Assembly: GCA_032355985.1 (NCBI GenBank)
Contig: JAUKVZ010000004.1
Span: 233,512 to 297,511, forward strand
Reading direction: 5' to 3'
From: Sarcodiotheca gaudichaudii
Lineage: Eukaryota; Rhodophyta; Florideophyceae; Gigartinales; Solieriaceae
Length of the DNA: 64,000 nucleotides
Under the pieces are notes generated by a model that saw only the letters and a list, made by a program, of their open reading frames with translations, did not search any database and was not told the DNA's origin. Shown here piece by piece: positions 45,954-61,530 of the stretch (its first letter is position 1; each line of letters begins with the position of its first letter). The position numbers were made by a program, and so were the translations under genes.

Positions 45954-48900
45954 TCAGGGGCAGGGCCCCCAGTAGGAGAGGAGTGTGGCGAGGTCGAGGG
46001 CGTTGACGCCGTCGTTGTTGAAGTCTCCCTGGGCGCTGGTGACGCCCCAGTTACTCAGGAGGATGGCGATGTCGACGGCGCCGACGTCGCCGTTTGCGTC
46101 GAGATCCCAGGGGCAGGCGCTTGCCAGCTGGATGAGATTTGATGGGTTGTCGACGGCGCCATTGAGGGCGAGTGATTCGTAGTAGATGGTGTGGCCGTTG
46201 GTATTGAGTGTGGCGTTGGGGTCGATGGTGAGGTTGCGCGTGTAGATGGCTTCGGGGGCGCTGCCGCGTGATGGGTTGTTGTTGTGCGCATCGACGATGT
46301 TGACTGCGGTCGCGGTGGGGCCGATTCGGATTGTGTCGATGCGGAATTCGACGAGTTCGAGATCGACGTTTGCGCCAAGGTCGGGGGACATGGCTTCGAG
46401 GGATTGGGGGGCGTCTTCGGGGAGGGCTGTCATTTTGAGCGCAGCGCCGGAGAGATCGAAGCGTGCCGGTTGATTGGCTGCGCTGTCGAAATCTGCGCCG
46501 AGTGCGAGTTGTGCGCCGGGGCTGAGGGAGAGTGTCGCTTCGGGGCTGAGGGTGAAGTCGCCCTGGACGAAGAGGCCGGAGTTTGATGTAGAGCCGCGGG
46601 CGGCGGTGTTGATGTCGCCGATGATCGAGCCGTTGTTGGTGAGGGCGCCGAGGATGGTGAGTGTTCCGTTTTGAATCGAGGTGAGTTCGTTGTTGGTGAA
46701 GTCGCCTCGGATGATGGAGTCGGCGAGGAATGTGAACTCGCCATTGTTGGTGGTGTCGGCGTCGATGTCGGCGTCGCCGGTGATGAGGTTGTTGTTGGTG
46801 AAGCCGTTGTCTGCGATGATCGCGCTTCCGCCGCTTGTCAGTTGCCGCCGGTTGATGATGCTGTTTTCGGCGGCGAGTATGGATCCGAACGGAAGGTCGA
46901 GCGCGTCGTAGCTTGTCCGATGCAGGTTAATTCTCTCAAGCGTCTCTGTCGCATTTGCGACGTCGAGATTGCCATCACCGGTGAAGTCTGCAATGGCGAC
47001 GGATCTGATCGCGAATACGAATGCATCGATAGTTCTGGATCGAAACTCGGGCGGACTCTGGCCGTTGTTCTCATGCCAGGTCAGCGGATCGGCTGTGATG
47101 ATGTCGAGATCGCCATCTCCATCGAGATCCGCGGCGCTGACGAATGGTTGTGGCCGATCTTCCAGCGGAATCTCGTGCGTCGTGAAGGACGGCGGCGTCA
47201 GGCCATCGTTTTCGTGCCAGTACAGCGTCTCCGGGAATTGCGCGACTGAGATCGCGTCGATGTCTCCATCGCCATCGACATCGCCGCTGGTGACGGCATG
47301 GGGCTGAAAAATCTCTTCAAGCTCGCTGTAGATCTCATGCGGTGTGAACGAGGGTGGGTCCATGCCATCGTTCTCGTACCAGCGCACGAGATCATCCCCC
47401 TTGGATGCGGAGAGCAGATCCATGTCGCCATCCAGATCGAAATCGATCGCATCGATGGAAACGACGTGGTTGGCGGCTCCAAACAGCGTGTGCGTCGTGA
47501 ATGATGGCGGATCCATGCCATCGCTCTCAAACCAGCGGATGGTGTGATCGATGTACGACGCCGAGACGACGTCCATGAATCCGTCGCCGTTCATGTCGGC
47601 GGCAAGGACGTCAAAGGCGCCTGCGGCGCTTGAGAAGATTGTGTGCGCCGCAAAGCTCGGAGTGGGGGCGCCATCGTTCTCGTACCAATAGATGGAGCTT
47701 TCGGCCTCTGAAGCCGCAAGAACATCGATGTCTCCATCTTCATCCATGTCGGCGGCGAATACGCTTCGGACCATGGCCACGTCATCATCGATGTCGAGCG
47801 ATTCAAACACGGGGTTCGCCGCACCGTCATTGCGGAACCATCGCACATCATTATCGATCGCCGAACCTGAGACGATGTCGTCGTCGCCATCGCCATCCAG
47901 ATCTGCGGCGACGATCGAGTGCACGTCGTAGCGATCGCCCCACACAATCGACTTTGTGAACTCAGGAACGCCGGCGAGGAGCGCCGGTCCGCCGGTGATA
48001 TTCAGAAGCGAGCCGGGCGACATGACAAGGTCGCCGTCGAACTCGGCGCCTGCGCCGGAGTCGATTGTGCAGGTTGCGCCGTTGTCGAGGGTCAGCGTGC
48101 CTCCAACCGCCAGCGCAAGCGTCGAATCGGCGCGCAACAAGGAGTCATCGCCAAGCCATGATTCGCCGGTGAGGCGAATTTCGCCGGGCTCGATTTCGTC
48201 GACGAGACCGCCGATGGGGATCGTCGCTTCGCCGAGCGTGAGCGTGCGCGCCGGGCCGATGTCGGCGACGGAGTTGTCTGCCAGCAATGCGTCGCGTTCG
48301 AGCAGGACGCTCCGAACAATAAGATCGCCGCGCACACGAAAGATGATCTCGGTGGCGCCGGCGCCGGCCAGAAGATCGAGTTCGAAGTTTGAGTTCGTAT
48401 TGGTCTGGCGATATTCGATGACGTCGCCCGATTCGGCATCATTAATTGCATTTTCAAATGAGCCTGGGGCGATGCCCTGGTTGTTGTTCCAGAGCGAGCT
48501 TGGCCGAAAGAGATCGCTGTCGATCCAGCGAATGCTTCCATCCGAAATGTGGGCTGTCAGAATATCCGTGTCCCCGTCTGCATCCATATCTGCGGCCATC
48601 AGATCGACCGGGCCGTCGCCGATGTCATGGTGGGTGAATGTCGGCGGCGATGCGCCGTCACTTTCGTGCCATCGAAGCATGGCGTTGATGCTGGCGGTGC
48701 TGGAGATGGCGTCCTGATCGCCGTCGCCATCGAAATCCACGGCGAATACGGCCGACGGCCATCCACCTCCGGGAATGTCAAACAAGGTGTGCTGGGTGAA
48801 GGCGGGCGGCTGCTGGCCATCGCTCTCAAACCAATAGATTCGACCGGAGCTCGCCGTCATCACGTCGATGGCGCCATCGGCGTTCAGATCCTCGCAAAAC

Positions 48901-49637
48901 ACGTTGCGAGGGGCAATTGCTGACGCGGAGATCACTCGTGTTGTGAATGTCGGCGCCATGGCGCCGTCGTTTTCATGCCAGAACAGGGTGTCCGACGCTG
49001 TGGTGATGATGTCGAGATCGGCATCCGCATCCATGTCGATGACGAACAATCCATTGACATGGTTTGGCGCCAGCCACGGGGTGTGCTTTGTGAATGAAGG
49101 GATGGCCGCGCCGTCGTTCTCATACCAATGCAACGCGGCGCCGAGTCCTGTTGTGGTGACGGCCATGTCACAATCGCCGTCGCCATCGATATCCGCCAGG
49201 AAGACATGAGCGGCGTCCGTGACAGGATCAGCAAGGGTTTGCAGGGTGAACGTCGGATCTGCGGCGCCATCGCTTTTATACCAACTCAGGCCCGCACTGT
49301 TCGATGCGGCTACGGCTATGTCGCAGTCGCCATCTCCATCGATATCCGCGACGAATACATCCGTCGCGGAAAAATGCTGGCCGATTTCATGAGTCACGAA
49401 CGATGGCCGGATGCCGCCGTCGCTTTCATGCCAGTGCACGAGAGAGTCGGCTTGGGATACGGAGACCGCGTCCAGGTCGCCATCATCATCCAGATCGACA
49501 GGGAAGACAGAGCGCGGCAGCTCTGTTTCGGTGAAGATGGGAAAGGACTCGAACGCGATGTGAAGATCATCGCCTTGGGCAAGAGCAGGGCTTGCCACGG
49601 CCATGATTGCAAGCGCGGCGACCAATCGAGATGTCAT
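45954..49637 (-). CDS. very large FG-GAP/VCBS-repeat secreted protein with dockerin-like module
   Basis: A protein of 1227 residues. The start MTSRLVAALA (49637) begins a signal peptide (IMAVASPALAQ); the open frame upstream to 49934 runs antisense through the PEP-CTERM gene tail and is rejected. Two propeller blocks (~25-390 and ~590-930) flank a beta segment with RVRGDLIVRSVLLERDALL-type repeats, the same arrangement as the large gene at 1812. A region of filament-like beta repeats (NNGEFTFLADSIIRGDFTNN) precedes the dockerin-like module (CPWDLDANGDVGAVDIAILL ... YWGPCP). Only a weak GGAAA precedes the start. Function unknown; likely a surface protein. Confidence 0.86.
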   Translation of the reverse strand: MTSRLVAALAIMAVASPALAQGDDLHIAFESFPIFTETELPRSVFPVDLDDDGDLDAVSVSQADSLVHWHESDGGIRPSFVTHEIGQHFSATDVFVADIDGDGDCDIAVAASNSAGLSWYKSDGAADPTFTLQTLADPVTDAAHVFLADIDGDGDCDMAVTTTGLGAALHWYENDGAAIPSFTKHTPWLAPNHVNGLFVIDMDADADLDIITTASDTLFWHENDGAMAPTFTTRVISASAIAPRNVFCEDLNADGAIDVMTASSGRIYWFESDGQQPPAFTQHTLFDIPGGGWPSAVFAVDFDGDGDQDAISSTASINAMLRWHESDGASPPTFTHHDIGDGPVDLMAADMDADGDTDILTAHISDGSIRWIDSDLFRPSSLWNNNQGIAPGSFENAINDAESGDVIEYRQTNTNSNFELDLLAGAGATEIIFRVRGDLIVRSVLLERDALLADNSVADIGPARTLTLGEATIPIGGLVDEIEPGEIRLTGESWLGDDSLLRADSTLALAVGGTLTLDNGATCTIDSGAGAEFDGDLVMSPGSLLNITGGPALLAGVPEFTKSIVWGDRYDVHSIVAADLDGDGDDDIVSGSAIDNDVRWFRNDGAANPVFESLDIDDDVAMVRSVFAADMDEDGDIDVLAASEAESSIYWYENDGAPTPSFAAHTIFSSAAGAFDVLAADMNGDGFMDVVSASYIDHTIRWFESDGMDPPSFTTHTLFGAANHVVSIDAIDFDLDGDMDLLSASKGDDLVRWYENDGMDPPSFTPHEIYSELEEIFQPHAVTSGDVDGDGDIDAISVAQFPETLYWHENDGLTPPSFTTHEIPLEDRPQPFVSAADLDGDGDLDIITADPLTWHENNGQSPPEFRSRTIDAFVFAIRSVAIADFTGDGNLDVANATETLERINLHRTSYDALDLPFGSILAAENSIINRRQLTSGGSAIIADNGFTNNNLITGDADIDADTTNNGEFTFLADSIIRGDFTNNELTSIQNGTLTILGALTNNGSIIGDINTAARGSTSNSGLFVQGDFTLSPEATLSLSPGAQLALGADFDSAANQPARFDLSGAALKMTALPEDAPQSLEAMSPDLGANVDLELVEFRIDTIRIGPTATAVNIVDAHNNNPSRGSAPEAIYTRNLTIDPNATLNTNGHTIYYESLALNGAVDNPSNLIQLASACPWDLDANGDVGAVDIAILLSNWGVTSAQGDFNNDGVNALDLATLLSYWGPCP

Positions 49638-49775
49638 GGTGTATTTCCGAGTCAAACCGGAGTATGTCCCAACATGCCGTGGATGAGCATACGTCTTCGG
49701 CGCCAGTTCACGTGACTGACGAGTTTCCCGCGGCCGGCGACGAATTGCACGCAAAAAGTCGGCGCTGGGAGTGCG

Positions 49776-49810
49776 CAAAGAACAGGCCGCCCCGAGTGGA
49801 GGCGGCCTGT
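49776..49810 (-). terminator. intrinsic terminator after the PEP-CTERM gene
   Basis: A perfect 10-pair stem ACAGGCCGCC/GGCGGCCTGT with a 9-base loop is followed on the minus strand by TCTTTG. It lies about 65 bases downstream of the stop at 49876. Confidence 0.72.
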
Positions 49811-49875
49811 GTGGAGTTGATGCTTGTGTCACGGCGTATGTCACGTCGTGATGGGTTGGTGCGCGGGCGTCTTTC

Positions 49876-50514
49876 TTACGCCTGCATCGCGCGGCGGCGG
49901 CGGGCGCCGATGAGGGCCATGCCGGCGAAGCCAAGGCCGCTGGCGGCCGGGAGCGGGATCGCCTTCATCTCGGCGGCGCCTTCAAGGAGGAGGCCCGTCG
50001 GATTGGGATCGTTCGTGACCTGCTCGTTGTAGACGATGATCTCGATGTCGATCGAGCTGCCGCTGACCCAGAAGTCCTGATCGAAGTTCTGGAACTGCTG
50101 CGGGTTGGACTGCAGGTTGGCGTCGAAGTCGACAAGGACCTGACCGGCGATCGAAAGGAAGATCACCTGGTTATCCGAGGTGTAGTCGCCGTGGAAGCAC
50201 CAGCGGGTGTTGTCCATCACGTCGACTGAGAGCGTGTACTTATAAAAGCCGGGCGAATCGAGGGCGTCGGTTTCGGTGCTGATCCACTCGGCGTTGGGAG
50301 CGGAAGCCCACGCGCCGGGGATATCGCCTGCGGCGACTTCGACGGCCGTGCTTGAAGCGCCGAAGGTCGGCTGTGTCGTCGGGTAGTCCATCGGGATCGA
50401 GCCGTAGGCGACCTGCCAGTCGGCGACACCGGTTGAAAGATCAACTGTTCCTGCGCTGGCGACTGCTGAACTCAGCAGCGCGACGGCGCACGCATACCAC
50501 TGTGCATTTCGCAT
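49876..50514 (-). CDS. secreted PEP-CTERM/VPLP-type protein
   Basis: A protein of 212 residues. GGGGAGG lies about 9 bases upstream. The signal peptide ends near SAVASAG. The mature part is beta-rich (FYKYTLSVDVMDNTRWCFHG, IFLSIAGQVLVDFDANLQ), without a recognised enzyme motif. The C-terminus IPLPAASGLGFAGMALIGAR followed by RRRAMQA is an exosortase-type sorting tail (Pro-hydrophobic-Arg). Its own terminator follows on the minus strand. Function unknown. Confidence 0.8.
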   Translation of the reverse strand: MRNAQWYACAVALLSSAVASAGTVDLSTGVADWQVAYGSIPMDYPTTQPTFGASSTAVEVAAGDIPGAWASAPNAEWISTETDALDSPGFYKYTLSVDVMDNTRWCFHGDYTSDNQVIFLSIAGQVLVDFDANLQSNPQQFQNFDQDFWVSGSSIDIEIIVYNEQVTNDPNPTGLLLEGAAEMKAIPLPAASGLGFAGMALIGARRRRAMQA

Positions 50515-51368: not shown

Positions 51369-51408
51369 ACGCGGCTCGCCCACGACCTCGGGGTTGGGGG
51401 TCGCCTTG

Positions 51409-51480
51409 GCCACCGTAGCTCAGTGGTAGAGCACACCCTTGGTAAGGGTGAGGTCATGGGTTCAAGTCCCATCGGTGGCT
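51409..51480 (+). tRNA. tRNA-Thr (GGT anticodon)
   Basis: The acceptor stem GCCACCG pairs with CGGTGGC. The D arm contains AGCTCAGTGGTAGAGC, the anticodon stem is CACCC/GGGTG with loop TTGGTAA (anticodon GGT), and the T arm contains GGTTCAAGTCC. CCA is not encoded; the gene ends GGTGGC plus discriminator T. It lies upstream of tuf, an arrangement also seen in other bacteria. The following 51481-51807 holds no gene; a 7-pair hairpin GACCTCG/CGAGGTC lies at 51752-51773 in the tuf leader. Confidence 0.96.
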
Positions 51481-51807
51481 TTGACGCCGCCGCCTCGTGG
51501 TTTTCCGCGTGGGGTTGGCATTGGTATCCTTGCGTCAGTCGCCGGCGCGCAAGGAGTTGGTCGGCGGGCTTCTGAGTCTGCCTGCCGATGGGTGGGTTGG
51601 CCGGTTCCGTCGGGTGTCGCATTGTTGCGGCGTTCTTCGGCGCTGCGTTCGTATGTTCGATCGCAGTTGTAATCAGGATTGAGTGTCTGGTCGGAGCGTT
51701 TGGGGACGAAGGTCGTCTTCGTCGCGCGTTTCGTTCAGGCTTTTGGCGCACGACCTCGACCGAGAACGAGGTCCTATCGACAGCTTCATGGTGGAGGTTC
51801 TGCCGAC

Positions 51808-52806
51808 ATGGCTAAGGGTGTATTTGAGAGAACCAAGCCGCACCTCAACGTTGGAACGATCGGCCACATCGATCACGGCAAGAGCACGCTGACGGCCGCA
51901 ATGTCGGCGCGTTCCGCCGCGAAGTACGGTGGTGAGGCCAAGAGTTATGCCGACGTGACGAAGGGCGGCACGGTTCGCGATTCGAGCAAGACTGTGACCA
52001 TCGCGGCGTCGCACACTGAGTATGAGACGGACAACCGTCACTACGCTCACGTCGACTGCCCCGGTCACGCCGACTTCGTGAAGAACATGATCACGGGCGC
52101 TGCGCAGATGGATGCGGCGATCCTTGTGGTTTCGGCGGCTGACGGCCCGATGCCTCAGACGCGTGAGCACGTGCTGCTCGCTCGTCAGGTGAACGTGCCT
52201 CACATCGTCGTGTTCCTGAACAAGGTCGACCTTGTTGACGATCCGGAGCTTCTGGAGCTCGTTGAGCTTGAAGTTCGCGAGTTGCTCAACAAGTACGACT
52301 TCCCGGGCGATGATCTTCCGATCATCAAGGGTCAGTCCAAGGCCGCGATGGAGAATCCGTCCGATGACGCCGCCAACGGCCCCATCGACGAGCTCTTCAA
52401 CGCGCTGGACACCTACGTTCCCGAGCCGGATCGCGAGGAGGACAAGCCCTTCCTCGTGTCCGTCGAGGACGTGTTCTCGATCAAGGGACGCGGCACGGTC
52501 GCGACCGGTCGTATCGAGCGTGGTGTCGTCAAGGTTGGTGATGCGGCTGAGATCGTCGGCCTCAACACCGCGCCGAGCAAGACGACTGTCACGGGTGTCG
52601 AGATGTTCAACAAGACGCTTGAGCAGGGTCAGGCCGGCGACAACGTCGGTGTGCTGCTTCGCGGCGTTGAGAAGGATGACATCGAGCGCGGGCAGGTCAT
52701 CTGCAAGCCGGGTTCGATCAATCCGCACACCAAGTTCAACGCTGAGGTGTACGTCCTCACGAAGGAAGAGGGTGGTCGCACCACGCCGTTCTTCAACGGC
52801 TACCGT

Positions 52807-53362: not shown

Positions 53363-53436
53363 ACGCCGGTAGCTCAATTTGGTAGAGCAGCGGATTCCAA
53401 ATCCGCAGGTTGAGTGTTCGAGTCACTCCCGGCGTG
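53363..53436 (+). tRNA. tRNA-Trp (CCA anticodon)
   Basis: The acceptor stem ACGCCGG pairs with CCGGCGT. The D arm contains AGCTCAATTTGGTAGAGC, the anticodon stem is GCGGA/TCCGC with loop TTCCAAA (anticodon CCA), and the T arm contains GTTCGAGTC. It lies between rpmG and secE, as in many bacteria. CCA is not encoded. Confidence 0.96.
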
Positions 53437-53490: not shown

Positions 53491-53898
53491 ATGTCATTCG
53501 GAATTTATAAGCAGGGTCAGGGCTACTGGACGCGCGTGATGTCGGCTGCCGGCGCGGGCGTGCTTGGTCTGGCCGGAGCGAACTGGGCGTTTCAGCAGCT
53601 CAGTCAGGTCGATGTGTCGTTCCAGCGCGAGTACCTGCAGGCGGGCGCCGCGGCGCTTGTGACGATCGTGGTGGCGCTGGCCATCTATTACTACATCGGC
53701 GTCAAGCGCAGGACCGTGGATTTTCTGGTCGCCACCGAAGGCGAGATGCAGAAGGTCAACTGGTCGAGCAAGCGCGAAGTGATCGGCTCGACGTGGGTGG
53801 TCATCGCGGTGAGCGTGATCATCTCGGTTGTGCTCGGCGTCACTGATCTGATCTTCTCCTGGTTCTTCATTCTGATCCGGGTGCTTGAGGTCGGTTGA
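53491..53898 (+). CDS. secE: preprotein translocase subunit SecE, N-terminally extended
   Basis: A protein of 135 residues. The conserved SecE core is in the C-terminal half: FLVATEGEMQKVNWSSKREV (amphipathic cytoplasmic helix with the W/P-S-R/K-E pattern), then the main membrane helix (~98-122). Two further hydrophobic segments (about 16-38 and 48-68) lie upstream, giving a three-helix form rather than the single-helix minimal form. SecE clamps SecY in the Sec translocon, which must export the many signal-peptide proteins encoded in this window. Directly upstream of nusG. Confidence 0.93.
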   Translation: MSFGIYKQGQGYWTRVMSAAGAGVLGLAGANWAFQQLSQVDVSFQREYLQAGAAALVTIVVALAIYYYIGVKRRTVDFLVATEGEMQKVNWSSKREVIGSTWVVIAVSVIISVVLGVTDLIFSWFFILIRVLEVG

Positions 53899-54011: not shown

Positions 54012-54695
54012 ATGACCAACGACACAGCCTCCACACCCGACAGCAGCCAGAGCAAGCCGCCCGCAGGCGCGCCGCTTGATGGACGTCTCAACGAGCGCAC
54101 CGACATGATCGGCGGCGACGATGAGCCGATCACACAGGAAGGCATGAACTGGTTCGTCCTTCGCGTCGCCTCCAACAAGGAGTCGCACGTGCGCGAGACG
54201 CTTCTGCGCAAGGTGCAGATCGAAGGCATGACGCATCTCGTCGGACGCATTCTCGTTCCGACGGAGAAGACCAAGACGATCAAGGGCGGCAAGCAGCGCA
54301 TCACCGAGACGAAGCTCTATCCGGGCTACGTCTTCGTTGAGATGCAGCTGGAGGACGATGGCCGCATCCCGCAGGATGTGTTCTTCCTGATCAAGGAGAC
54401 GACGGGCGTTGGCGATTTCGTCGGCGCGGCGGGTCGTCCCACGGCGATGGCGCCGCATGAGATCGAGAAGATGCTGCTTGATAGCCGCAAGCCCGAGGAA
54501 CTGCCGACGGTTCGGATGGTCTTCGAAAAGGGCGATCAGGTCATCATCCGCGAGGGTCCGTTCGAGAACTACGAGGGCACGGTGGACGAGCTGCAGCCTG
54601 ACAAGGGCGTGGTTCGCGTTCTGGTGACGATCTTCGGCCGCCAGGCGCCCATCGATCTCGAAGAGTGGCAGATCTCCAAGCCCGACGAGGCCTGA
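54012..54695 (+). CDS. nusG: transcription termination/antitermination factor NusG
   Basis: A protein of 227 residues with a ~45-residue polar N-terminal extension. The NGN domain starts NWFVLRVASNKESHVRETLL and contains YPGYVFVEMQLED; the C-terminal KOW domain contains FEKGDQVIIREGPFENYEGT and VLVTIFGRQAPIDLEEWQI. NusG binds RNA polymerase and couples it to Rho or the ribosome. AAGGTG lies about 12 bases before the ATG. The usual downstream ribosomal genes rplK-rplA-rplJ-rplL do not follow; a glycosyltransferase does. Confidence 0.95.
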   Translation: MTNDTASTPDSSQSKPPAGAPLDGRLNERTDMIGGDDEPITQEGMNWFVLRVASNKESHVRETLLRKVQIEGMTHLVGRILVPTEKTKTIKGGKQRITETKLYPGYVFVEMQLEDDGRIPQDVFFLIKETTGVGDFVGAAGRPTAMAPHEIEKMLLDSRKPEELPTVRMVFEKGDQVIIREGPFENYEGTVDELQPDKGVVRVLVTIFGRQAPIDLEEWQISKPDEA

Positions 54696-56170: not shown

Positions 56171-58840
56171 ATGGCTGGCTCACCTCAACAGATCGGTCAG
56201 TACACCATCGAACGCGAGATTGGTCGCGGCGGGATGGGCGTTGTCTATCTGGCGCATGATCCGCGCCTGGGCCGGCAGGTCGCGATCAAGGCGCTGCCGG
56301 AAGAGGTGGCGCAGGATCCCGAGCGGCTGGCGCGCTTCGAGCGCGAGGCGCGGGCGCTGGCGCAGCTGCAGCATCCGAACCTTGCCGGGATCTACGGCAT
56401 CGAGGAGGCCGATGGCGGGCGCTATCTCGTGCTCGAGTATGTCGAGGGTGAGACGCTCTCTGAGATCATCGATCGCGGGCCGCTGCCACTGGATGATGCG
56501 CTGGACTGGTGCAGCCAGATCGCGGCGGGCGTGGCGTCGGCGCATGATGGCGGCGTCATTCATCGCGATCTGAAGCCGGACAACATCAAGATCACGCCGG
56601 ACGGCAAGGCGAAGGTGCTGGACTTTGGTCTGGCCAAGGCGAGCGAGACGAGCTCTTCGACATCACATTCGGGCAGCATGAGCCCGACGCTGACGACGCC
56701 GCGTGGCGATGGTCAGAGTCAGACGATTCCCGGCGCGATCATGGGCACGGCGCCTTACATGAGTCCGGAGCAGGCGCGCGGGCGCAGGCTTGATCGGCGC
56801 AGCGATGTGTGGAGCTTCGGCTGCATGCTGTATGAGTGCCTGACGGGCGCGCGGCTGTTTGCCGGTGAATCCGCGACGGATTCGATGGGCGCGATTCTGC
56901 ACAAGGAAATCAGCTTCGAACTGCTGCCGCAGACGACGCCGGCGCGCGTGCGCGAGCTGCTGGCGCGGATGCTGGAGCGCGACAAGGACAGGCGCCTCCG
57001 CGATCTCGGCGATGCGATGCTCGAACTGGAAGCGGCAAGGCGTGATCCGGGCGAGGCGATCGGCGCGAGCGAAAAGAAGAAGAGCGGCGGCGTCGGATGG
57101 GCGGCTGTCCTGATGCTTGTGCTGCTTGCAGGCGCGATCGGCGCGGGGGCGATGTGGTTCAGTCGCGGCGATGAATCGGCTTCGAAGCTTCCGTCGTTCA
57201 CGATCACGCAGCTCACTGATGGCGCGGAGACCGAATCATGGCCTTCGCTGACGCCGGATGGGCAGACGATCGTGTATGCCGCCCGGAGTCAGGGTGGAGT
57301 GGGACACATCTATCGGCGACGTGTCGGCGGGTTCAACGCGACGGATCTCACGCCGGACGCCACGGAAGACTGCTTTATGCCGTCGCTTTCACCGGATGGG
57401 CAGCGAATCGCGTTTTGTTCGGAGCGCGATGGGGGCGGGCTGTTTGTCATGGGCGCGACTGGTGAATCGCCGCGACGTCTGACGGATCAGGGATTCGATC
57501 CGGATTGGTCGCCGGATCAGACGAAACTTGTCTTTGCGACGGAAGGCATCATCACGCCCTCGGCGCGACTTTCGATTAGTGAGCTCTGGACCGTCGATGT
57601 GCAGAGCGGTGAGATGAAGCGCATTTATGAAGGTGATGCGGTGCAGCCGCGATGGTCACCCTCTGGCGCGCGCATCGCATACTGGCGCGTTCAAAGATCC
57701 GGCCAGCGCGACATCTACACGATCAATGCCGATGGAAGCGATCCAGTGGCGCTGATGCAGGATGCGCCGACGGATTGGAATCCGACGTGGTCACCCGATG
57801 GCAAGTGGATCTACTTCTGCAGCGATCGCGGCGGCCGTATGGCCATCTGGCGCATCGGCGTCGACGAAGCGAGCGGGCGGGCGACGACGGCGCCTGAGAA
57901 GATCACGACAAGCACGCGCGCAGCAGCGGGGTATCTGGCGTTCTCCGAAGATGGCAGGCGTCTTGTGTTCAACTCGACCACGACGAATGTCGAACTGATT
58001 CGTCTGGATCTGGATCCTGAGACGTTTCTTCCGACGGGTCCGCCGACGGAACTGACGCCATTCGCTTCCAACGCGATCCAGCCTTCGATTTCGCCGGATG
58101 GCAGGTTCATTTCGTACAGCAGCAATGGCGAGCCGCAGGAAGACCTGTTCATCATCTCCAGCGACGGATCGACGCGCCGTCGCGTGACAAATGATGCGCC
58201 GAAGGATCGCGGGTCCAAGTGGATCCCGGGCGAAGACCGTCTTTTGTTTTACTCTGATCGCGAAGGCAAATATCGCCTCTGGAGTGTGCGGACTGATGGA
58301 GGCGATCTGAAACTCGTCGCTGAGGAGGATCAGTCGCTCAATATGCCAAGGCCCTCCCGCGATGGCCGGTATCTCGCCGCCAGTTCCAGCACGCGCGAAT
58401 CGTTCGTTTTTCGCCGCAATGAAGAGGGCGCATTTGACCGGGTGACTGATGTGCCGCAGCCGCCGGGCACGAGCCAGTTCTTTCCGCTGGACTGGGCGCC
58501 TTCGGGAGCGAAGTTGCTGGTCGCCTCGATCCAGGATGACACCGGACTATTCATGGTCTGGATGTTTGATGTCGAGTCAGGCGCTTACGAAATTGTCGAA
58601 GAGGACTACGGCGATTCGTCGTTTGCGCAGTTCGTCGGGTCCGACCGAATGTTGATGATCTCAACATCCTCGAGCATCGTCTTGTGGAATCGAGACACCG
58701 GTGAGCGCCAAGTGATCTACGAGTTCCCGCAATCGGACTCCGGCGCTGCGGAATTCGACGTCGCGCCGGATGGCACGTGGATGTGCATCAATGTGATCAA
58801 CAGAGAATCGGACTTGTGGATGATTGAGTTTGAGGAGTAG
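56171..58840 (+). CDS. serine/threonine protein kinase with PD40/TolB-like propeller, copy 1
   Basis: A protein of 889 residues. The kinase domain (~10-290) has glycine loop GRGGMGVVY, VAIK (Lys 40), HRDLKPDN (catalytic Asp 133), DFG (151-153) and GTAPYMSPEQARGR. One membrane helix is at ~309-330. The extracytoplasmic part carries TolB-like PD40 repeats (LTPDGQTIVYAA, LSPDGQRIAFCSERDGG, WSPDGKWIYFCSDRGG, ISPDGRFISYSS). It is probably a receptor-like kinase sensing an external ligand. No clear Shine-Dalgarno sequence precedes the ATG. The next gene is a close tandem copy. Confidence 0.93.
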   Translation: MAGSPQQIGQYTIEREIGRGGMGVVYLAHDPRLGRQVAIKALPEEVAQDPERLARFEREARALAQLQHPNLAGIYGIEEADGGRYLVLEYVEGETLSEIIDRGPLPLDDALDWCSQIAAGVASAHDGGVIHRDLKPDNIKITPDGKAKVLDFGLAKASETSSSTSHSGSMSPTLTTPRGDGQSQTIPGAIMGTAPYMSPEQARGRRLDRRSDVWSFGCMLYECLTGARLFAGESATDSMGAILHKEISFELLPQTTPARVRELLARMLERDKDRRLRDLGDAMLELEAARRDPGEAIGASEKKKSGGVGWAAVLMLVLLAGAIGAGAMWFSRGDESASKLPSFTITQLTDGAETESWPSLTPDGQTIVYAARSQGGVGHIYRRRVGGFNATDLTPDATEDCFMPSLSPDGQRIAFCSERDGGGLFVMGATGESPRRLTDQGFDPDWSPDQTKLVFATEGIITPSARLSISELWTVDVQSGEMKRIYEGDAVQPRWSPSGARIAYWRVQRSGQRDIYTINADGSDPVALMQDAPTDWNPTWSPDGKWIYFCSDRGGRMAIWRIGVDEASGRATTAPEKITTSTRAAAGYLAFSEDGRRLVFNSTTTNVELIRLDLDPETFLPTGPPTELTPFASNAIQPSISPDGRFISYSSNGEPQEDLFIISSDGSTRRRVTNDAPKDRGSKWIPGEDRLLFYSDREGKYRLWSVRTDGGDLKLVAEEDQSLNMPRPSRDGRYLAASSSTRESFVFRRNEEGAFDRVTDVPQPPGTSQFFPLDWAPSGAKLLVASIQDDTGLFMVWMFDVESGAYEIVEEDYGDSSFAQFVGSDRMLMISTSSSIVLWNRDTGERQVIYEFPQSDSGAAEFDVAPDGTWMCINVINRESDLWMIEFEE

Positions 58841-58875: not shown

Positions 58876-61530
58876 ATGAGCAATGCGCCTGATCAGATTG
58901 GCCAGTACAGCATTGAGCGCGAGCTTGGCCGCGGCGGCATGGGCGTCGTCTATCTGGCGCATGATTCACGTCTTGGGCGCGATGTCGCCATCAAAGCGCT
59001 GCCTGATGAAGTCTCGCAGGACGCCGAGCGCTTGGCGCGATTTGAACGCGAAGCGCGAGCGCTGGCGCAGTTGGATCATCCAAATCTTGCCGGCATCCAC
59101 GGGATCGAAGAGCACGATGGCCGGCGCTATCTTGTGCTTGAGTATGTCGAGGGTGAGACGCTTTCGGAGATCCTCGAACGCGGGCCGCTGCCGCTCGATG
59201 AAGCGCTGGACTGGTGCAGCCAGGTCGCGGCGGGCGTTGCCTCGGCGCATGACTGCGGCGTCGTGCATCGCGATCTGAAGCCGGACAACATCAAGATCAC
59301 GCGCGAGGGCAAGGCGAAGGTGCTGGACTTCGGGCTGGCGAAGGCGAGCGATCCGCAGTCGAGTTCAAACTTCAGCGGCAGCATGAGCCCGACGCTCACG
59401 ACGCCGCTCGCCGGGCTGGGCAGCGAGACGATCCCCGGCGCGATCATGGGCACGGCGCCCTACATGAGCCCGGAGCAGGCGCGCGGGCGTCACGTGGATC
59501 GGCGCACGGATGTGTGGAGTTTCGGCTGCATTCTGTACGAGTGCCTGACGGGCGCGCGGCTGTTTGCCGGTGAATCGGCGACGGATTCGATGGGCGCGAT
59601 TCTGCACAAGGAGATCAGCTTCGATCGGCTTCCGGATACGACGCCCCCGCGCGTTCGGGAACTGCTGGCGCGTATGCTGGAGCGCAATAGGGATCAGCGC
59701 CAGCGCGATCTTGGCGATGCGATGCTTGAGCTTGAGGCTGCCCGGCGCGATCCAGGTGAGACGATCGGCGCCGCCCGCGGATCGAAAGGGCGCAGACTCG
59801 GTTGGGCGCTCGTGCTGGCGCTTATGCTTCTTGCTGGCGCGGTTTGGGTCAACCGCGGTGCGGAGTCAGGGGCGGCGCTGCCTGCATACACCGTCATGCA
59901 GCTCACCGATGGCGCCGAGAATGAATCGTGGCCGACTCTGACGCCGGATGGCCAGACGCTTGTGTACGCAGCGTGGCGCCCGGGCGGCGTGGCGCACATC
60001 TTTCGCCGGCGCGTCAGCGGCTTCAACGCTACCGATCTCACGCCGAACGCCACCGGGGACTGCTATATGCCGGCGCTTTCGCCGGACGGGCAGCGAATCG
60101 CATTCCGCTCCGAACGTGATGGCGGCGGCCTGTTCGTGATGGGCGCCACCGGCGAATCGCCCCGGCGGCTGACGGATCTTGGATACGACGCGAGCTGGTC
60201 GCCCGATCAGACAAAGCTCGTCTTTGCGACCGAAGGCATTACAAATCCCGCTACGCGAATGTCAATCAGCGAACTGTGGACGGTGGATGTGCAAAGCGGC
60301 CAGACGAAGCGCATTCATGAGGGCGACGCGGTGCAGCCACGATGGTCGCCCTCGGGCGCGCGCATCGCATTCTGGCGTGTCCAGCACTCCGGTCAGCGCG
60401 ATATCTACACGATCCGGGCCGATGGAACGGATCCGGTGGCGCTGATGAATGATGCGCCGACGGACTGGAATCCGATATGGTCGCCCGATGGCAAGTGGAT
60501 CTACTTCAGCAGCGATCGCGGCGGGCGCATGTCGATCTGGCGGATCGGCATTGATGAAGAGACCGGGCTGCCGACCACTGAGCCTGCGCAGATCACAACG
60601 GGCACGCGCGCCCGCATAGGCAGCCTGGCGATCTCAGGCGACGGCAAGCGCCTGGCGTTCACTTCCACCGATGTTGAATTTGAGCTGCTGCGGCTGGATC
60701 TTGATCCAGAGACGAATCTTTCGACTGGGCCGCCGACATTGCTGACGCCCTTCGCATCGAATGCAATTCAGCCTTCGATCTCGCCGGATGGCAGGTTTAT
60801 TGCATACAGCAACGTCGGCGAGCCGCAGGAGGATCTCTTCATCATTTCCAGCGACGGTTCTACGCGCCGGCGCGTCACGAATGATGCGCCAAAGGATCGC
60901 GGGGTTGAGTGGGCCCCCGACAATGAGCGGCTCATGTTCTATTCCGATCGCGATGGCAAGTATCGCTACTGGAGTGTGCGGCTCGATGGCGGCGATCTCA
61001 TGCTCGTTGCCGAGGCGGACTCGGCGATCAACACGCCCGAGATCTCACCCGATGGCGAGTATATCGCCGGCAATTCGAACACTCTTGCCTGGTTCATCTT
61101 CCGTCGAAATGACCAGGGCGAGTACATCCGGATGGATGATGTGCCGCAGCCGCCGGGCGCGATCCAGTCTTCTCCGCTGGACTGGGCGCCGATCGGAACA
61201 AAGGCGCTTATTGTCTCGCCTCGCGACGAAGTCGGTTCACATGTGATCTGGGTGCTCGATGTCGAGTCCGGCGCTTACGAGATTGTCGAGGAGGATTACT
61301 CCGGGCTATTATACGCGCAGTTCTTCAACTCCGACCGGCTGCTGATCATTCTGACGCCATCGAACATCATCGTGCGGGACCTGGACACGGGCGAGCGCCA
61401 TGTGATCTACGAGTTTCCGCCCTCCGAGTTCCGTGCTACGAATTTTGATCTCGCGCCGGATGGATCGTGGATCTGCCTGAACGCGAATAGGACGGAATCA
61501 GATCTGTGGATGCTTGAGTTTGAAGAGTAG
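58876..61530 (+). CDS. serine/threonine protein kinase with PD40/TolB-like propeller, copy 2
   Basis: A protein of 884 residues, highly similar to copy 1 throughout. Kinase residues are conserved (VAIK Lys 40, HRDLKPDN, DFGLAKA, GTAPYMSPEQARG), followed by a membrane helix near 308-327 and PD40 repeats (LTPDGQTLVYAAWRPGG, LSPDGQRIAFRSERDGG, WSPDGKWIYFSSDRGG). AGGG lies 7 bases before the ATG, and only 35 bases separate it from copy 1, so they probably form one transcript. Similarity appears lower in the last ~200 residues, the presumed sensing part. Confidence 0.93.
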   Translation: MSNAPDQIGQYSIERELGRGGMGVVYLAHDSRLGRDVAIKALPDEVSQDAERLARFEREARALAQLDHPNLAGIHGIEEHDGRRYLVLEYVEGETLSEILERGPLPLDEALDWCSQVAAGVASAHDCGVVHRDLKPDNIKITREGKAKVLDFGLAKASDPQSSSNFSGSMSPTLTTPLAGLGSETIPGAIMGTAPYMSPEQARGRHVDRRTDVWSFGCILYECLTGARLFAGESATDSMGAILHKEISFDRLPDTTPPRVRELLARMLERNRDQRQRDLGDAMLELEAARRDPGETIGAARGSKGRRLGWALVLALMLLAGAVWVNRGAESGAALPAYTVMQLTDGAENESWPTLTPDGQTLVYAAWRPGGVAHIFRRRVSGFNATDLTPNATGDCYMPALSPDGQRIAFRSERDGGGLFVMGATGESPRRLTDLGYDASWSPDQTKLVFATEGITNPATRMSISELWTVDVQSGQTKRIHEGDAVQPRWSPSGARIAFWRVQHSGQRDIYTIRADGTDPVALMNDAPTDWNPIWSPDGKWIYFSSDRGGRMSIWRIGIDEETGLPTTEPAQITTGTRARIGSLAISGDGKRLAFTSTDVEFELLRLDLDPETNLSTGPPTLLTPFASNAIQPSISPDGRFIAYSNVGEPQEDLFIISSDGSTRRRVTNDAPKDRGVEWAPDNERLMFYSDRDGKYRYWSVRLDGGDLMLVAEADSAINTPEISPDGEYIAGNSNTLAWFIFRRNDQGEYIRMDDVPQPPGAIQSSPLDWAPIGTKALIVSPRDEVGSHVIWVLDVESGAYEIVEEDYSGLLYAQFFNSDRLLIILTPSNIIVRDLDTGERHVIYEFPPSEFRATNFDLAPDGSWICLNANRTESDLWMLEFEE

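Follow-up and report, generated by a model that had tools for sequence, protein, structure and literature searches.

An alternative switch I loop is the normal EF-Tu form of whole bacterial lineages, and its mosaic distribution suggests that the loop has been exchanged as a unit

The EF-Tu of planctomycetes reportedly carries a unique 11-residue motif, as described by Jenkins and Fuerst in 2001 (J Mol Evol 52:405). That planctomycete EF-Tu paper is cited in the accessible part of PMC3444138. Models of GTP hydrolysis by translational GTPases give switch I and Asp21 a central role, and Asp21 and His84 are termed universally conserved and crucial in the part of PMC5311926 available to us. The accessible part of PMC4342817 describes both actEF-Tu2 and Streptomyces EF-Tu3, which like the protein considered here are EF-Tu variants distinct from the standard form, and a group of translational GTPases, eIF2-gamma among them, that have no monovalent-ion site. 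The protein encoded in the window (the whole 64,000-nucleotide stretch of DNA that was analysed) differs from canonical bacterial EF-Tu, as represented by TIGR00485 and by Thermus 1EXM and 1EFT, in that switch I is replaced and is two residues longer, residue 25 is Ser, and the G5 motif reads QSK (Table 1).

The reading frame of the window tuf, read end to end, is intact and contains no frame break. Its product scores 650.6 bits against TIGR00485, the NCBIfam EF-Tu equivalog, for which the cut-off is 522.4; it has the three-domain EF-Tu fold, and G1 GHxDHGK, G3 DCPGH with His84, G4 NKxD and the Mg-binding Thr are all present. Residue numbers are given in what we take to be E. coli EF-Tu numbering, assigned by motif. 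The protein lacks the switch I sequence IDxAPEExxRGITI that marks the canonical-loop subgroup, a subgroup to which an EF-Tu need not belong, and has Gln where that subgroup has the G5 residue Ser173. Its loop counts 16 residues against 14 in the canonical form (I49 to I62), and the features that distinguish alternative-loop EF-Tu are found together: a loop of the form RxxxKx-aliphatic-T, no RGIT, and no canonical copy judged to be native. Unlike actEF-Tu2 and EF-Tu3, the gene does not accompany a second, canonical tuf that we judge to be the organism's own. The initial annotation had described an EF-Tu with a rewritten switch I about two residues longer than usual, a Thr-to-Ser change in the P-loop, QSK at G5, and a coherent full-length gene in a tuf-rpmG-secE-nusG cluster, and each of these points held. 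The nearest neighbour of the window EF-Tu in the loop-masked tree was a Phycisphaerales protein. We take the window tuf to encode the housekeeping EF-Tu of a Phycisphaerales-like planctomycete, by all signs the only one that the organism has. A sigma-70 promoter scan returned 0 sites. Elsewhere in the window, positions 45954-49934 encode a large repeat protein that by eye is FG-GAP/VCBS-like with a dockerin-like C-terminus, and two similar proteins encoded in tandem downstream of the cluster (56171-58840 and 58876-61530) have, also by eye, the look of a Ser/Thr kinase with WD40/TolB-type repeats.

Table 1. Features of the tuf locus, in window coordinates
Feature	Position	Strand	Remark
tRNA-Thr	51408..51481	+	upstream of tuf
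tuf, EF-Tu, 400 aa	51808..53010	+	rewritten switch I (GGTVRD type); ATG at 51808, stop ends 53010
P-loop GHIDHGKST of tuf	51862..51888	+	Asp21 kept, Thr25 to Ser
Rewritten switch I of tuf, 16 residues	51955..52002	+	replaces canonical IDxAPEExxRGITI
G5 motif GQSK of tuf	52330..52341	+	canonical GSAL
rpmG (ribosomal protein L33), 60 aa	53132..53314	+	by eye from sequence and position
tRNA-Trp	53363..53436	+	between rpmG and secE
secE	53491..53898	+	
nusG	54012..54695	+	

The view of the loop as an oddity of this one gene did not survive the homologue and phylum samples, in which it proved to be the normal EF-Tu form of whole lineages. A rewritten loop was present in all 120 nearest homologues listed (119 recognised by script and one, P0108, by eye), and among these the residue after the G5 Gly was Gln in 93 and Ser in 16. 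At 80 genome loci, most of them in bins, the loop was rewritten in 23 and canonical in 57; because these loci were the best matches to a rewritten query, the 23/80 share cannot be extended to bacteria in general. The 23 rewritten loci carry either the window-type loop (GG) or a longer sister form, VAKASESQGRRDxTKILTI (RRD). Planctomycetota are represented among them by Phycisphaerales, Pirellulales, Isosphaeraceae, Gemmataceae, Sedimentisphaerales and others, and the rest belong to Opitutae/Puniceicoccales, another Verrucomicrobiota bin, Elusimicrobiales, one Myxococcaceae bin, Bipolaricaulota/Acetothermia, Nitrospira and one unplaced bacterium. Searches of the 23 genomes with a rewritten loop turned up no canonical tuf, and all 25 of their EF-Tu matches were rewritten. 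When homologues of the Nitrospira protein were listed, 119 of 120 had the RRD form, Candidatus Nitrospira allomarina and Nitrospira sp. MA-1 among them, and the loop of the other (P0231) was not readable.

In the sample from Planctomycetota, the phylum of genome G007, EF-Tu was found in 183 of the 199 genomes examined and could be read in 132, of which 75 were canonical and 57 rewritten; the rewritten share is probably underestimated because the 51 unread genomes score lower. The Verrucomicrobiota sample (n=29) contained 15 canonical, 10 RRD and 4 GG forms. Among 29 Nitrospirota genomes, 15 had EF-Tu (12 canonical, 2 RRD and 1 without an N-terminus), and among 27 Elusimicrobiota genomes, 22 had EF-Tu (12 RRD, 9 GG and 1 without an N-terminus), so that in the latter phylum 21 of the 21 read were rewritten. 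Canonical and rewritten copies were never mixed in the 28 two-copy genomes in which both N-termini were read, a count that leaves aside G186, whose second match lacks the N-terminus. Some large Planctomycetota genomes encode an additional, divergent EF-Tu that is about 394 aa long and has a GG loop (L257, L258 and L259, in G071, G203 and G144). In G088 and G102 the second EF-Tu (L262 and L263) is more divergent, has an EEQxRGITI loop and scores below the cut-off of the equivalog.

We compared the distribution of the loop with trees built from the remainder of the protein. The first tree comprised 214 EF-Tu proteins from which the segment from the P-loop to switch I had been removed, with repeats of one sequence, proteins shorter than 370 aa and loci that carried no group label left out; for a 132-row IQ-TREE set, five divergent paralogues were dropped and near-copies were thinned. 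The 214-row masked tree agreed in part with the phyla. At least 16 changes between the canonical and the rewritten loop were needed on it, and again 16 on the 132-row tree. Starred branches of the 132-row tree force at least 5 of these 16 changes; support was weak, with 63 of 129 inner branches below 80.

The mosaic pattern is cleanest in one Planctomycetota order, represented by nine genomes, eight of them with EF-Tu, of which six had the GG loop, one (G147) the RRD loop and one (G191) the canonical loop. Outside the loop, the EF-Tu proteins of G191 and G147 have 81% identity; inside it they agree at 2 of 19 positions. The two share the tuf-rpmG-secE-nusG order (judged by eye) and a CxCxxxxCxxC insert after G5. 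Natural pairs of this kind, alike outside the loop, would allow the function of the block to be tested directly, with no need for designed variants. The insert in these two proteins (L127 and L345) is possibly a metal site. A Verrucomicrobiota and an Elusimicrobiota protein are identical at 19 of 19 loop positions and 73% identical outside, and RRD loops compared between phyla agree at 15 to 19 of 19 positions (10 to 13 where Bipolaricaulota is involved) in proteins whose remainder is 70-78% identical. Across several bacterial phyla, these comparisons suggest that replacement of the loop as a whole has occurred more than once during evolution.

The same data can be read in terms of a single origin, in which a second kind of EF-Tu arose once, in ancient times, and owes its distribution to the transfer of whole genes or to the differential loss of an old duplicate, with no exchange of loops. 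When all rewritten forms were constrained to one clade, the AU test on the 132 rows, run with a quick tree, failed to reject this arrangement (p 0.195), and the Opitutae GG forms grouped with Elusimicrobiota at 95% SH-aLRT, so that some transfers, such as this one, may have been of whole genes. However, one clade was rejected in three smaller, careful AU tests, one with 33 rows chosen after the first tree was known (p 1.2e-6) and two with random draws of 44 rows (p 6.4e-4 and 3.2e-4), and G191, G147 and Nitrospira keep the EF-Tu of their own lineage outside the loop. Because the AU tests disagree, several origins of the rewritten loop are likely but not settled, and we regard a single origin as unlikely. 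The best explanation, which we consider probable, is that the window gene encodes a housekeeping EF-Tu with an alternative switch I that does the same opening and closing job, and that this loop was repeatedly exchanged between lineages. Recurrent exchange of a core loop within tuf would matter for phylogenies based on EF-Tu.

We next consider which residues change with the loop, in a comparison of 106 canonical with 108 rewritten sequences. Every canonical sequence has Asp50 and Pro53 and no rewritten one does, and the G5 residue Ser173 is present in 106/106 canonical versus 66/108 rewritten sequences. Lys-x-aliphatic-Thr is found in every rewritten sequence (108/108), as are Thr61 and His84; the aliphatic gate residue is V in 65, L in 32, I in 9 and M in 2, and the position of Gly59 is occupied by I in 64, T in 40 and V in 4, and by Gly in none. 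On the 132-row tree, Leu175 is replaced in 27 of 65 rewritten versus 5 of 67 canonical rows, and Ser25 occurs in 6 of 65 rewritten versus 0 of 67 canonical rows, with five changes. Asp21 is retained at 130 of 130 canonical loci, whereas the rewritten loci have D in 94 and S in 11 (repeats of one genome included), a loss that amounts to one change on the tree. Both readable copies of G213 and both of G200 have Ser in place of Asp21, and in the GHISHGK clade of Planctomycetota the Asp is missing from every EF-Tu copy whose P-loop could be read. Thus, among the sequences read, Ser173 of G5 and the catalytic Asp21 vary only in rewritten forms. The GHISHGK P-loop, without the catalytic Asp21, was read at L216, L222, L232, L234, L236, L238, L261 and L264, in a clade of large Planctomycetota genomes. 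None of the site associations with loop type was significant in the tree pair tests, since five usable pairs were too few; position 139, which appeared to be associated with loop type in the plain comparison, lost the association in these tests and was rejected. The annotation had also raised the possibility of an altered sensitivity to elfamycins. L120, Q124, G316 and Q329, which we take to be elfamycin contact positions, are unchanged in 108/108 rewritten sequences (these are the four mapped positions, three others lying outside the mapping), and nothing here predicts resistance.

Two alternative loops that are related to each other, GGxxRDxxKxxTI and a longer form, AKASESQGRRDxxKxxTI, take the place of IDxAPEExxRGITI in the EF-Tu of many bacteria. 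The alternative loop lacks Asp50, Pro53, the two Glu and Gly59. The functional elements are retained: the Thr that binds Mg, preceded by an aliphatic gate residue, a Lys where the canonical form has Arg58, and, in switch II, His84. Such a loop most likely still opens and closes over GTP, with a putative beta-hairpin tendency instead of the EExxRG helix and with a presumably weaker reliance on the Gly59/Asp21 ion site, the loss of which we infer. An AF2 model, made without a canonical control, has strands at residues 54-57 and 60-62 of the loop at a pLDDT of about 66-69, and as a whole resembles the closed GTP state; a first model from a shallower alignment (36 rows) had no strands, and its residues 49-67 had a pLDDT below 50. 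A change of switch I from helix to beta-hairpin in the GDP form is described in the accessible part of PMC6249014. The route of exchange was probably homologous recombination or gene conversion between tuf genes, and the sequence flanking the loop is strongly conserved. One could envisage, more tentatively, that EF-Tu exists in two interchangeable designs, one using the Gly59/Asp21 ion and the other an ion-independent hairpin loop that allows Asp21 to be lost, the loop being a short recombining cassette in a mostly vertical essential gene; we put this forward as a possibility that may well prove wrong.

The residues also bear on the idea that antagonists attack EF-Tu at this site and that the alternative loop, as a target immune to them, was favoured by selection. 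Precedents are available, at least in the parts of the two papers that are accessible: Lit cuts EF-Tu at Gly59-Ile60 (PMC3014915), and a type VI effector modifies the EF-Tu P-loop (PMC12288458). The complete absence of Gly from the Gly59 position of the rewritten rows would be expected on this account, and repeated exchange of a preformed block fits the replacement of a target. Both known attack systems are enterobacterial, however, and the G5 changes would be left unexplained, and we consider selection of this kind quite improbable. Separate, convergent origins of one loop in different phyla would accommodate the scatter of loop type over the tree, but they are scarcely credible given that up to 19 of 19 loop residues are identical between phyla at 73% identity elsewhere, and convergence on AKASESQGRRD is itself very unlikely.

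A search for a second, canonical tuf had been proposed as a check on the window gene, and the whole assembly (61 contigs) indeed contains two further full EF-Tu genes of the canonical form. Each is found within the gene order rpsL-rpsG-tuf-rpsJ, close to a plant-type ferredoxin (genes named by eye), the GC content around them is 35.4% and 32.6% versus 61.7% in the window, and one of them (contig C12) is interrupted by an internal stop codon. Because of their low GC and their cyanobacterial or plastid gene order, we take these genes to lie on cyanobacterial or algal-plastid contaminant contigs in the bin, and a second canonical tuf as the working copy was rejected on the basis of GC (33-35% versus 62%), gene order and the ferredoxin. 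The description of the window gene as the housekeeping tuf stands as regards its intactness and its place in the cluster, with the caveat that the assembly holds two canonical genes, which this evidence marks as foreign. The annotation had named a second canonical tuf as grounds for refutation, and these two genes answer to that in name only. Contigs C12 and C13 of the G000 bin (L001 and L002) are of low GC with cyanobacterial or algal-plastid gene order, and C10 and C12 carry short EF-Ts genes; the bin possibly contains two different photosynthetic contaminants. That the window gene is a specialised or decaying paralogue beside a working canonical copy, as the two canonical genes in the same assembly might lead one to think, is hardly tenable in view of the composition and gene order of those stretches and of the canonical copy found in 0 of 23 genomes with a rewritten loop.

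The annotation had further proposed that EF-Ts and the sarcin-ricin loop be examined for co-variation with the form of the loop. EF-Ts was present in 21 of the 22 genomes tested, so that loss of the exchange factor was rejected as an explanation; the one genome that gave no EF-Ts was the Nitrospira bin G021, possibly an incomplete one. A sarcin-ricin 16-mer with an E. coli-like flank, a poor choice of pattern, was found in 2 of 28 genomes, and the 14-mer AGTACGAGAGGACC in 10 of 28, with the reversed control pattern in 2 of 28. The 14-mer was missing from G203, G092 and G175, which have rewritten loops and in which the tuf contig is roughly the whole genome, and also from the canonical G177 and G150, and two Elusimicrobiota genomes that carry the RRD loop did contain it. 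The 14-mer thus does not track loop type, and co-variation was rejected. The exact 14-mer is absent from eight Planctomycetota in which the tuf contig is roughly the whole genome (G203, G071, G092, G128, G175, G047, G177 and G150); the sarcin-ricin loop region may be altered in these eight, whatever their type of EF-Tu loop.

The 11-residue planctomycete EF-Tu motif of 2001, which served there as a mark of the phylum, is probably the same loop, and if it is, the presence of the loop in planctomycetes is old news. In contrast to that motif, the loop described here is also found in other phyla, is absent from many Planctomycetota, and is accompanied by changes in G5 and the P-loop. A literature search that covered few subscription papers returned nothing on the loop in other phyla, on exchange within tuf, or on a link to G5 and Asp21, and what looks new is that the masked EF-Tu tree does not unite the rewritten forms (three of four AU tests). 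Whole lineages, Nitrospira included, have an EF-Tu without EExxRGITI and no canonical copy that we found, and one Planctomycetota clade is also without Asp21. Unlike actEF-Tu2 and EF-Tu3, which according to the accessible part of PMC4342817 are second, condition-specific copies, the window tuf is the sole EF-Tu as far as found. The translational GTPases without a monovalent-ion site, such as eIF2-gamma, belong to other subfamilies, EF-Tu not being among those named in the same part of that paper, but they have undergone the same loss of the switch I Gly that is seen in the rewritten EF-Tu forms, one clade of which has lost the P-loop Asp as well.
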